From Naumovozyma dairenensis CBS 421 (lineage: Eukaryota; Ascomycota; Saccharomycetes; Saccharomycetales; Saccharomycetaceae): a stretch of DNA of 64,000 nt. Both the position numbers and the translations under genes were made by a program. Where the stretch lies: NCBI RefSeq assembly GCF_000227115.2, contig NC_016480.1:744001-808000 (forward strand). The letters run 5' to 3'. Under the pieces are notes generated by a model. That model made no database searches, had not been told where the DNA came from, and saw only the letters and a list, made by a program, of their open reading frames with translations. Below, in pieces: positions 42,709 through 46,466 of this stretch (positions within the stretch are counted from its first letter, which is position 1; every line of letters begins with the position of its first letter).

Positions 42709-44354
42709 TGGGTCAATGATACCAAAACGAAAGGAAAGTGAAAATAAGTAATGATATTTCCGAGTAGGGGGGTTCTACAGAATAATATGTCGTGTTAGTA
42801 TCAAAAGTTTGGAATGTCATTGAGTGGTTGGCTGTTGCAAATATAATACCTGTTTCTCCCTCAATGAGGAACTTTATGGGAAGAATATTGAAATGGAAGT
42901 TACTGTTTATCATCAGTACTAGCACCATCGAGTATGTTCTTGTTCCATAAATGTTAAGGTACTAGGTACATACTGGATTGAAATAGAGCTGTAGTCGTTC
43001 GTTGGATGCTCGTAGATAGATACTTCTTTTTCACGAAATAATCTGAGGTAAGTCTTATCAACGATTAATTCTGGTAGGAAAATATTTCCGTTTTATATTT
43101 GAACGAGAAATAACCAAATGGGTGCCTTATTTTACAATATAGGCAGCCTTAGCCATATCTGTCATGTTATATGAACTTAACTTTCTTTGCTGTTAACTAA
43201 CCATATTCGTCAACCACGGTTACGGTACATAAAAAAATTGTCCTATAAAATGAAAAGTTATTGAAGAAGCCAAAAGGTTCAGTCTTTGACAAGGAAGCCC
43301 GTGAGGAAGAAGGAATTTGGAAAAGAAATAGTTTAGTTTGTTTAAGAGATCAGATTATACATTTTCATTTATATGCTAATAACCCAAAAGACTACAAAAA
43401 GTGACCTATGATGTTTTAAAACTAAAAATACAGGACACGACAATTTTTGCATGGAGGCGCCCAATGATTTCTGCCTTGATCTTTCCATATAAAAAGAGTT
43501 TACTTTCTTTTATTAACCTATGTCATTACCTATGTTATGTTAGAACTACCAGACTATTCTCATCAGAGATTTTAATAAAAAAGCTGCATTTATTTTGAGA
43601 AAGATTGAATGAAGTTTCCGCCAATGGCAACCATACTGCAATCTGCGCTAAGATATATGTCTAATAATTTTATATGATAGGAAGACTTGGTAAAAATGAT
43701 CCGAAAGATCAACAAAAGGAACATTATTCTGCAGTTTTAGAACGAATAAAATTCATAAACTATTCTTTAGGTCAAATATCTATAAGAGACCCTTTGTTTC
43801 AGTACGGTATCTTTAGAGCAAACAATATGTTATTGCCAGAAATATATGAGGACTTTCCAAAGTACAACCTTTTATCGGTTAGGAGAGAAACTAAGAGGAA
43901 ACACTGGGAAATAATATATCTGAAAGAAGTAACTTACTGTATTGTCATACTCATTTCTATTTATGCTTTGGTTATTTCGATAGAGACTGTAGGGTAGCTT
44001 TTTTGTTCTACCCGCCAAATATTGATAGGAATATTCAGTGGTAGTTCAACATTAATCGTCTTTTACTGTCATGCGACATAATTGACCGTACGAAGGGATA
44101 TCTTTTACGAATGCAAATGTTTTTCACTAAAGAAACGTCAAAACATAGAGGTTTTATACCATTAGTATGACTTTTCCACTCTCAACTTAAAAAGATTGAA
44201 GGAATACTATAGCATTATTATATATTACTTGAGGCACACTCTAGTTTAAAGTACAATGTAAACGGTAGTAAGTTCCAGACGCCGAAAGGTTAAAGTCGTT
44301 GAGTATAGCTTTCTGATACGTTATTCTCTATATTTCAAAAAAATCAACAAATAA
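42709..44354. other. Intergenic between zinc-finger gene and tRNA-Lys
   Basis: 1.65 kb: promoter of the zinc-finger gene, one small candidate gene (43674-43997), and AT-rich DNA. Nothing else recognised. Confidence 0.35.
43674..43997 (+). CDS. Hypothetical 107-residue tail-anchored protein
   Basis: Not recognised. ATG start, MIGRLGKNDPKDQQKEHYSA, hydrophilic and Lys/Arg-rich for about 85 residues, then one C-terminal hydrophobic span (VTYCIVILISIYALVISI) with almost nothing after it, the layout of a tail-anchored protein. It stands alone in a 1.6 kb gap. Amino-acid composition is protein-like, but no homologue is known to me. Confidence 0.35.
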   Translation: MIGRLGKNDPKDQQKEHYSAVLERIKFINYSLGQISIRDPLFQYGIFRANNMLLPEIYEDFPKYNLLSVRRETKRKHWEIIYLKEVTYCIVILISIYALVISIETVG

Positions 44355-44427
44355 GCCTTGTTGGCGCAATCGGTAGCGCGTGTGACTCTTAATCACAAGG
44401 TTAGGGGTTCGAGCCCCCTACAAGGCT
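44355..44427 (+). tRNA. tRNA-Lys(CUU): tRNA-Lys (anticodon CUU)
   Basis: 73 nt, no intron. Acceptor arms GCCTTGT/ACAAGGC, D-arm box TGGCGCAATCGGTAGCGCG, anticodon loop CTCTTAA, T-arm GGGGTTCGAGCCCC, discriminator T. Nearly identical to S. cerevisiae tRNA-Lys(CUU). A T-rich run follows near 44430 as terminator. Confidence 0.98.
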
Positions 44428-44754
44428 GTTTTTAAATACTATTAATTTTTTTATTGAATTATATATTCTTAATGCTACATTTTTTACTTCGAATATTCTT
44501 TACTTGCCTTTCTACTTATATATGGATAATATTCCAATGTGTCCTAATGTTTTATAATACACCATATTCAGATGTTATTATCGAATACTGATTTGTTTTT
44601 GTAGCAATGTGCTGACATTCCGATATCAAAAATTTCTCTTGTTATTATAAAAATTTTTTAGTCTAAACACAAATTTGTCTTAGATTATGATATTTCTTAT
44701 AGAAACCCTTCTTGTAATATCCCTGGAAGACCAGCCTATCTGTGTGAAGTGACG

Positions 44755-45580
44755 ATGGGTCGTTGTCTTCGGCATCACTACAAAAGGACAGCCTTGTAAA
44801 AACCAACTACAAGGTCATGCGAATCCATACTGTCACTATCACGAATGGCAAGATCCAAGAAAATCGACAATCATTTCCCAAAATACTTCTAGTAAAAAAT
44901 GCCTGAATCGTGAAGGTTTTATTTATATTTACACATATGAAGCATTATATAATGCGTATGTTTCTCGAAGATTTAGTGGATTAGAGACTTGGTTGTATAC
45001 TGACAATTCTGTCATTATGAAAAAAACCCATCGAGAACAAAAAAGTTGGAATAGCCCAGATACGATTCTGGTGAAAATTGGGATGACTACGAAGAAAAAT
45101 GTAGCATTGCGACTGCAAGAATGGGAGAAAACCTGTCAGCATCCTGTTATTAATTTGTCTCCAGAAAGAGTCAGAAACTTACTAAGTGGTCGGGAAGAAT
45201 TCATGAATAATGATAAATCTGACGTCAAGACACTGACAAAATGGATGAAGAAACTGTCTTTACATAAAAAAGACTCTAAGAAAGTGAAAATATCTGCTGA
45301 AGGACCAATAAAACGACAGCCAGAAATTTTGCAAACATATAAATATGGTGGGTTTTTCCACGACGGGACAGGGCATACGTCCTTACAGGAAATTGAGAAT
45401 TCCATTCACAGGTTGTTATGGAAACAATATGGGAAAGGACTCGTTTATTGCTATGGATGTGATCCAACTGGGCAAAGGAGACATACTGAATGGTTCAATA
45501 TTCCAATTCAAAAACTCCCTTATGTGCTACATACGATCGATTCATTTTGTTTATCACAAAACGAAATGGTTAATCGGTAA
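44755..45580 (+). CDS. DUF1766/T5orf172 (GIY-YIG-like) protein read through a +1 frameshift
   Basis: Frame 1 starts at ATG 44755 (MGRCL). At CTT CGG C (44767-44773), skipping one base enters the long frame: GITTKGQPCKNQLQGHANPY, then CHYHEWQD. Together they form one zinc-binding pattern, with the first Cys before the shift and Cys, Cys, His after it. Next come GFIYIYTYEAL, then TILVKIGMTTKKNVALRLQE and WEKTCQ, typical of the T5orf172/Mug113 GIY-YIG-like domain, and a helical end with EIENSIHRLLWK. 274 residues if shifted. Without the shift, the only ATG-started product begins at 44993 and lacks the zinc site and the first domain strand. A 21-codon upstream frame (44686-44752) ends 2 bases before the ATG. 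Alternatives are a pseudogene or a sequence error. Function unknown. Confidence 0.65.
44767..44773 (+). promoter_or_regulatory. Candidate +1 frameshift heptamer CUU-CGG-C
   Basis: It has the same layout as the Ty1 and ABP140 heptamer CUU-AGG-C: a Leu codon prone to slip, followed by a rare Arg codon in the A site, with Gly (GGC) as the first +1 codon. The only difference is CGG for AGG. CGG is decoded by a scarce tRNA in S. cerevisiae. Confidence 0.5.
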
Positions 45581-45677: not shown

Positions 45678-46466
45678 CTATATATTTTGATGCATTATAT
45701 TCTGTATATTTCTGAGTTTCCAGTAATCGTATTTTATAGGTTCCAACTTTATAACACCTGTTCTGCCTTGAATAACATATTTTATTATTTCATCATTGAT
45801 ATGGTCCGACCACTCTTCCCAGAGTTGAAAGTCGAGAATTATTGGGAGATACAGAATGGAACATTTGACGTCCATGTCTCCTCTTTTGAGAGAATGTAAC
45901 TCGGAAAATAGACTATCTACATACTGATTTAACGCTGCCTTGCTGAACATATAATTGTTTGCCAAAGAAGGAAGCTCTAATGTTAATTGGTGAGAAATAT
46001 TTACGATGGAAAAGTTATTCTTGACTGAAACAATTTTCTTGAGGAAAAATTTTGTTATTTTCATCACCAGAATTAGATTCACTAGGGTACATTGTTGCAA
46101 AGTTATCAACTTTTGATTAGTCTTTGAACAAAACAACTGACTAATACCATATTGGAAATTATTTATTAAAGTGACAGATTTTCCTCTTATTGTATATAAC
46201 TTTTGAAAGATAAAAGCTTCCTGCCTCGCATTTTCAAACGAGCATAAGGGATAAAATTGGTACTCTGGTAGCAAATCAAAATTTTCGTTCCTGAATAAAT
46301 CTATATGGATAACTGGTAGTCCTAAGGAGAGGAATGACCATATTAGCTTGCTTCCAAATTTAGTCTCGCACCCTCCTAGGATAATAACAATGTCAATTTT
46401 TGGCCCTTTGTTCCAGCAGGAATGATAAAGGGTGTTAAGGAGCCCCAACATTATTTTTTGAAACAT
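45678..46466 (-). CDS. Divergent short-chain-dehydrogenase-like protein
   Basis: 262 residues. SDR-like layout: IDIVIILGGCETKFGSKLIW in place of the usual TGxxxGIG nucleotide loop, a central strand ending SLGLPVIHID, ...FSIVNISHQ (position of the catalytic Ser strand) and an intact Y-x3-K in NNYMFSKAALNQYVDSLFSE. The glycine loop is degraded and the NNAG motif is replaced by INNF, so enzyme activity is doubtful. Nearest S. cerevisiae relative may be YDL114W, judged from fold motifs and the YDL-block context. It could be a decaying gene, although the frame is intact. Confidence 0.5.
   Translation of the reverse strand: MFQKIMLGLLNTLYHSCWNKGPKIDIVIILGGCETKFGSKLIWSFLSLGLPVIHIDLFRNENFDLLPEYQFYPLCSFENARQEAFIFQKLYTIRGKSVTLINNFQYGISQLFCSKTNQKLITLQQCTLVNLILVMKITKFFLKKIVSVKNNFSIVNISHQLTLELPSLANNYMFSKAALNQYVDSLFSELHSLKRGDMDVKCSILYLPIILDFQLWEEWSDHINDEIIKYVIQGRTGVIKLEPIKYDYWKLRNIQNIMHQNI

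Follow-up and report, generated by a model that had tools for sequence, protein, structure and literature searches.

A predicted YFS1 orthologue of Naumovozyma dairenensis with a CUU-CGG-C variant of the conserved +1 frameshift site

Results

Organization of the locus

The locus lies on the plus strand of the window, the 64,000-nucleotide stretch of N. dairenensis DNA that was analysed, and is composed of two overlapping reading frames (Table 1). From position 44755 the window reads ATG GGT CGT TGT CTT CGG C, and the ATG opens a short frame, ORF1, which overlaps the much longer ORF2 from one base behind. As in genes of the YFS1 type, the N-terminal part of the long frame has no in-frame AUG of its own, and no ATG is found across its first 88 codons. 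A +1 step after CTT fuses ORF1 and ORF2 into a protein of 274 residues (MGRCLGITTKGQPCKN...), of which only MGRCL (44755-44769) comes from ORF1. The heptamer is a variant form of CUU-AGG-C, preceded by UGY and followed by UNAC.

The initial annotation had pointed to CUU-CGG-C at 44755-44790 and to a slip giving MGRCL-GITTK..., and the sequence is indeed as it described. Several of its details need correction. The short frame does not end exactly at the heptamer, its zero frame running through 14 codons to the TAA at 44797-44799; the ATG-less codons, counted as 74, are 88; and the codon at 44993, read as Met, is a TTG (Leu), the first in-frame Met being at 45017. The argument that such an arrangement is hard to explain by chance is well founded, as, of the 2,585 ATGs that the two strands of the window contain, ATG 44755 alone is followed in frame, within 20 codons and before a stop, by CTT[AC]GGC.

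Neither side of the site shows a notable RNA fold: the 67 nt upstream have a z-score of -0.37 (65 of 200 shuffles folding equally well or better) and the 100 nt downstream one of -0.69 (51 of 200). Three further features lie close by. A 21-codon uORF in the ORF2 frame (44687-44752) ends, with its TGA, two bases before AUG 44755; a tRNA-Lys(CTT) gene at 44354-44428 precedes the start of YFS1 by about 330 bases; and a 262-codon ORF on the minus strand (45678-46466) has a short-chain dehydrogenase match below the Pfam cut-off (E 0.00029).

Table 1. Features of the frameshift locus (window positions) and of two other +1 sites of the same genome
Feature	Position	Strand	Details
TGA closing the ORF2 frame upstream	44750..44752	+	doubles as stop of the 21-codon uORF from ATG 44687
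ORF1, zero frame	44755..44799	+	14 codons, MGRCLRHHYKRTAL, then TAA 44797-44799
UGU (Cys4), 5' of the shift site	44764..44766	+	proposed first zinc ligand
Putative N-terminal zinc module, C4-x9-C14-x11-C26-x2-H29	44764..44842	+	codons starting at 44764, 44795, 44831, 44840
Candidate +1 shift site, CUU-CGG-C	44767..44773	+	from the sequence; published YFS1 site variant (PMC12719033)
Codons at the shift site			CUU 44767-44769 (P site); CGG 44770-44772 (A site); GGC 44771-44773 (+1 codon)
ORF2, +1 frame	44771..45580	+	269 codons, then stop; frame open from 44753
UNAC motif, as UCAC	44775..44778	+	U 2 nt past the heptamer; from the sequence against the published motif
First in-frame ATG of ORF2	45017..45019	+	start of database gene call P0002
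T5orf172 stretch with MUG113 match inside, GIY-YIG-like	45053..45517	+	Pfam, both over cut-off
EST3 orthologue	L033:1218-1872 (G000:C5)	-	GA comes immediately after CTT-AGT-T; zero frame thus ends there
ABP140 orthologue	L043 (G000:C5:240443-240757)	-	short ORF1 (MAVADLIKKFENITED...), CTT-AGG-C, 357-codon +1 methyltransferase frame

Gene identity and neighbourhood

The shifted protein has eight database matches and the family profile 50, the short gene call of the window (P0002) being counted in both. Among the former is the product of SKDZ_16G2330, a chromosome-16 gene of S. kudriavzevii, which its chromosome and length lead us to take for the orthologue of YPL034W, this relative standing in for S. 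cerevisiae in the comparison. The gene is predicted to be the YFS1 (YPL034W) orthologue of N. dairenensis, and encodes a MUG113/T5orf172 protein. Both Pfam families, which we take to be members of the GIY-YIG clan, match almost all of the aligned proteins at E <= 0.1 (MUG113 45 of 45, T5orf172 44 of 45), and both are over cut-off here. The similarity of Yfs1 to GIY-YIG proteins is also remarked by Ivanov et al. (2025; PMC12719033). Sixteen columns are invariant across 42 aligned sequences, that of N. dairenensis included. The AlphaFold2 models available were those of the unshifted long frame and of a relative, P0016, neither of them the shifted protein; neither model found a convincing fold match in the PDB, with no GIY-YIG nuclease among the matches listed (50 of 173 in one listing), and when the entire shifted protein was searched against the PDB, just two matches came up, both unrelated (E 0.88 and 1.5).

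LUC7 and RAM1 are found near YFS1 in N. dairenensis. Among the best 120 of 2,182 matches by score, the adjoining RAM1 protein is nearest, besides itself, to that of Naumovozyma castellii, with 66%, followed among named species by Saccharomyces uvarum, with 59%, and Nakaseomyces bracarensis, with 63%. Five named species of Kazachstania, Huiozyma, Monosporozyma and Maudiozyma, which we treat as one Kazachstania group, are at 55-58% among the same 120. In three relatives the YFS1 and RAM1 proteins are encoded on contigs of equal length, presumably shared ones (P0007/P0060, 17,619; P0012/P0095, 22,050; P0013/P0099, 20,443), which suggests that the proximity of the two genes is an old arrangement. 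In S. cerevisiae, RAM1 is on chromosome IV. YFS1 is on chromosome XVI in that species (PMC12719033). Such a separation would be expected if different copies had been retained after the genome duplication.

Comparison with relatives

We then considered 44 relatives, that is the 50 profile matches without P0002 and the five weakest (P0047-P0051). Residues 1-88, up to the first in-frame Met, match 30 of these 44 at E <= 1e-3. The relatives' proteins were then searched for long-frame residues whose codons could contain ATG-NNN-NNN-TGY-CTT-N-GGN in the frame displaced by one base. Among the 11,974 positions that 45 proteins offer, such a hidden site is possible at five, which are homologously placed: one in the window protein and one in each of P0003, P0010, P0011 and P0012. 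If the ATG is not required, eight positions fit, three of them elsewhere. The protein footprints of four of the 44 relatives are thus compatible with a hidden AUG and TGY-CUU-NGG. The residue over the A-site base is Phe in the window, from CGG, and Leu in the four relatives, in which the protein points to CUU-AGG or CUU-GGG.

A search pattern for the start of the module matches 34 of the 44 relatives, 30 having Cys at the Cys4 position and four Val; the latter are P0003, P0010, P0011 and P0012, as read in the unshifted long frame. The ten relatives that miss the pattern include seven whose gene call has no module start and three variants, whose Cys was recognised by eye. Judging from their proteins, most of the relatives considered translate the module without shifting, in agreement with what the main text of Ivanov et al. 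reports for lineages outside the core Saccharomycetaceae (PMC12719033).

A putative N-terminal zinc module

The Cys preceding the site was initially seen as completing a C...C...C..H pattern, and this holds: the shifted protein carries C4-x9-C14-x11-C26-x2-H29, and the related C-x9-C-x(8-11)-C-x2-H occurs in 34 of 45 proteins (the shifted N. dairenensis protein and the 44 relatives). The x11 spacing is unique to N. dairenensis among these 34; the 11 proteins without the motif comprise the four whose unshifted frame was used and the seven without a module start in the gene call. Addition of the ORF1 residues raises two Pfam matches, DUF5763 from 15.7 to 18.2 bits (E 0.0017) and zf-primase from 12.3 to 17.2 bits (E 0.0043), both below cut-off. 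Taken in blocks of ten, residues 1-30 of the two AlphaFold2 models have pLDDT values of 84-95. The model of the unshifted long frame has a weak match to the Mcm10 zinc finger, which does not recur among the matches listed for P0016, and kinship with that finger is a weak lead from modelling; for the N-terminal module, a profile search of the PDB returned one irrelevant peptide only.

We propose a small CCCH module that may bind zinc, with the Cys preceding the site as its first ligand. This Cys is invariant in all 81 homologues compared by Ivanov et al. (PMC12719033), who describe residues 1-47 of the S. cerevisiae protein Yfs1 as unstructured; the words 'zinc', 'finger' and 'CCCH' are absent from the main text of that paper. 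What is added here is that the shift would join the first Cys of the motif to its other putative ligands.

Decoding setting

CGG is a rare codon, with 16 occurrences in the 11,795 codons of 21 window ORFs, compared to 90 for AGG. Two other genes of the same genome have +1 sites at CUU (Table 1): EST3 is split at CTT-AGT-T-GA, with the +1 frame open, and the ABP140 orthologue has CTT-AGG-C. These sites suggest that CUU is still in use as a slip codon, and three different A-site codons follow it in one genome, CGG (YFS1), AGG (ABP140) and AGU (EST3). For OAZ1, Pfam PF02100 gave no match in the genome, and control genomes were likewise blank, so that this is not evidence of absence.

A second ABP140-like gene was also seen (L035:1459-2528, G000:C5, match at 492237-492380 on the plus strand). 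It has a Lifeact-type N-terminus (MGVADLIKKFEKIAKN) and no CUU-AGG-C, and no methyltransferase-like frame occurs within about 600 bases past its last frame; its two frames, 1459-2268 and 2163-2528, have a -1/+2 offset close to eight consecutive A. It could possibly reflect duplicates that split functions, a -1 shift or an error.

As regards the tRNAs, three places match the S. cerevisiae tRNA-Leu(UAG), each split by an intron-like insert, and the tRNA is taken as present; ARAGORN classed one of the three as a tRNA-Stop(tta) and made no call on the other two, for which reason we read the anticodon by eye. This search, narrower than a complete survey of tRNAs, showed no tRNA-Leu(IAG). In the Rfam tRNA search, 63 of the 963 candidates were scored. 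A single match to tRNA-Arg(CCU) was found in the genome. A tRNA-Arg(CCG) was absent among the 50 of the 63 Rfam candidates run in ARAGORN (two of the 50 without a call), and was found neither by a plain 11-base pattern, whose three matches are not tRNAs, nor with a human gene as query, which had no match.

Discussion

A conserved +1 shift at the same place is already known as the published mode of expression of YFS1, a gene that contains YPL034W (Ivanov et al., 2025; PMC12719033). According to the main text of that paper, the shift is needed in 52 of 81 homologues and takes place nearly always at CUU-AGG-C, with a UNAC motif 3' of the site; CUU-CGG-C is found there in three Kazachstania species, and the frameshift has been secondarily lost in five. 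In S. cerevisiae, translation starts at the ORF1 AUG, and shifting amounts to 19.3% by ribosome profiling, a figure of limited accuracy, and to 48% in a reporter (PMC12719033). YFS1 is also one of the CUU-AGG-C cases of Fenton et al. (PMC12661321), to which they add LLP1. As far as literature listings for YPL034W/YFS1 show, these two papers alone treat its frameshifting, and titles and abstract openings retrieved for CUU-CGG pointed to no frameshifting paper besides PMC12719033. The N. dairenensis site is thus a further member of a known cellular +1 frameshift and not a new case. What the analysis adds is the CGG variant in Naumovozyma, a genus unnamed in the main text of PMC12719033; its figures and supplements are outside this statement, and the species may be among the 81.

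It is very probable, in our opinion, that the YFS1 orthologue of N. dairenensis is expressed through a +1 shift at CUU-CGG-C, which would yield a 274-residue protein with a CCCH module and a MUG113/T5orf172 domain. This rests on the sequence itself, on homology on both sides of the site, on the same offset in four relatives, seen as protein footprints, and on the sister +1 sites of the genome; the programmed shift that had been initially suggested is thereby supported, by published YFS1 and by these footprints. Ribosomes would initiate at AUG 44755, synthesise MGRCL and then pause, the slip-prone tRNA-Leu(UAG) reading CUU in the P site while CGG, a rare Arg codon, occupies the A site. A fraction of them would advance by one base, decode GGC as Gly6 and complete the protein, composed of the small zinc module and the GIY-YIG-like domain, and the ribosomes that do not shift would terminate after 14 codons. 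Any role of the product in DNA repair could be put forward only conditionally.

A first alternative is a decaying site. The ancestral CUU-AGG-C might have changed into a weaker CUU-CGG-C that allows little full-length protein, the gene being in the course of loss in N. dairenensis; this has the same origin as, and overlaps with, the preferred explanation, and appears unlikely to us. Re-pairing of tRNA-Leu(UAG) on UUC and not UUA is, by base-pairing rules, a weaker P-site pairing, in line with the severe reduction of shifting reported in S. cerevisiae when AGG is changed to CGG in the Ty1 site (cited in PMC12719033), a loss that speaks for decay, as do the five Kazachstania species that have secondarily lost the frameshift. 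Nevertheless, ORF2 is open over 269 codons, N. dairenensis keeps the 16 columns invariant in the 42 aligned sequences, the UG adjacent to the heptamer and UNAC are retained, and three other species also have CUU-CGG-C (PMC12719033). We infer that shifting is real in N. dairenensis, although it may be less efficient than in S. cerevisiae.

Translation of ORF2 could alternatively start elsewhere, by readthrough of TGA 44750 from ATG 44687, at a near-cognate codon or at Met 45017, but this is very improbable. ATG 44687 shares the frame of ORF2, and the TGA at which it stops has a C as its next base, yet all such starts would lose or misplace the conserved Cys4; the earliest of nine near-cognate codons tested, in the first 40 long-frame codons, is ATC 44774, 3' of the conserved Cys position. 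Moreover, a western blot in S. cerevisiae shows the full-length Yfs1 product only (PMC12719033), which also argues against the unshifted product from an internal Met evoked in the initial annotation, with a wrong coordinate. An N-terminus provided by an upstream exon is hardly credible. It would account for the 88 codons without ATG, but GTATGT and TACTAAC are both absent from 43997-44800, which contains a single GTAAGT (44268), and the first AG past 44753 is at 44785-44786, so that a splice junction there would drop the Cys codon; the AUG of ORF1 is, besides, the one used by S. cerevisiae YFS1 (PMC12719033). Intron, near-cognate start, readthrough and internal start were thus rejected on the sequence, the start-codon scan and the S. 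cerevisiae western blot (PMC12719033). Finally, an offset created by an assembly error or a frameshifting mutation can practically be set aside, as four relatives point to an identical offset at this codon and the shift is reported in 52 of 81 homologues (PMC12719033).

Coming back to expression by a +1 shift, a wider reading can be tentatively proposed, which we hold to be possible and no stronger than that: with three A-site codons (CGG, AGG and AGU) in one genome, the change of YFS1 to CGG, beyond Kazachstania, could have been kept because CGG decoding is limiting in N. dairenensis, and assembly of the zinc module could be the selected outcome, as the shift would decide whether the finger is completed, its first ligand being encoded in ORF1 and the other three in ORF2. 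The separation of the first proposed ligand from the other three offers a possible reason for the fixed position of the site within the gene. The recently published recoding event is hereby extended to Naumovozyma, and the genome offers a natural experiment, with CUU in the P site and AGG, AGU or CGG in the A site, in which A-site tRNA scarcity and P-site re-pairing (UUA versus UUC) become directly testable. Molecular genetic methods for N. dairenensis were lacking according to PMC4533239.

Compared to known systems, the N. dairenensis gene is most like YFS1 of S. cerevisiae, with which it shares an orthologous protein, the ORF1 AUG, the Cys codon adjoining the site, the +1 direction from CUU, the downstream UNAC and an in-frame TGA just 5' of ORF2. 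It differs by its A-site codon (CGG instead of AGG), by an ORF1 of 14 codons instead of 20, and by its place near LUC7 and RAM1 instead of on chromosome XVI (PMC12719033). The mug113 gene of S. pombe, the closest homologue of Yfs1 according to PMC12719033, can be set alongside as of the same family by name (Pfam MUG113). ABP140 and Ty1 (CUU-AGG-C) and EST3 (CUU-AGU-U) have the same P-site codon and the same +1 direction but a different A-site codon; ABP140 of S. cerevisiae has in addition an upstream RNA stem (PMC12661321), whereas nothing notable lies upstream in N. dairenensis YFS1. The variant of the three Kazachstania species, finally, has the identical CUU-CGG-C heptamer at the YFS1 site, and differs from the one described here by its genus (PMC12719033).
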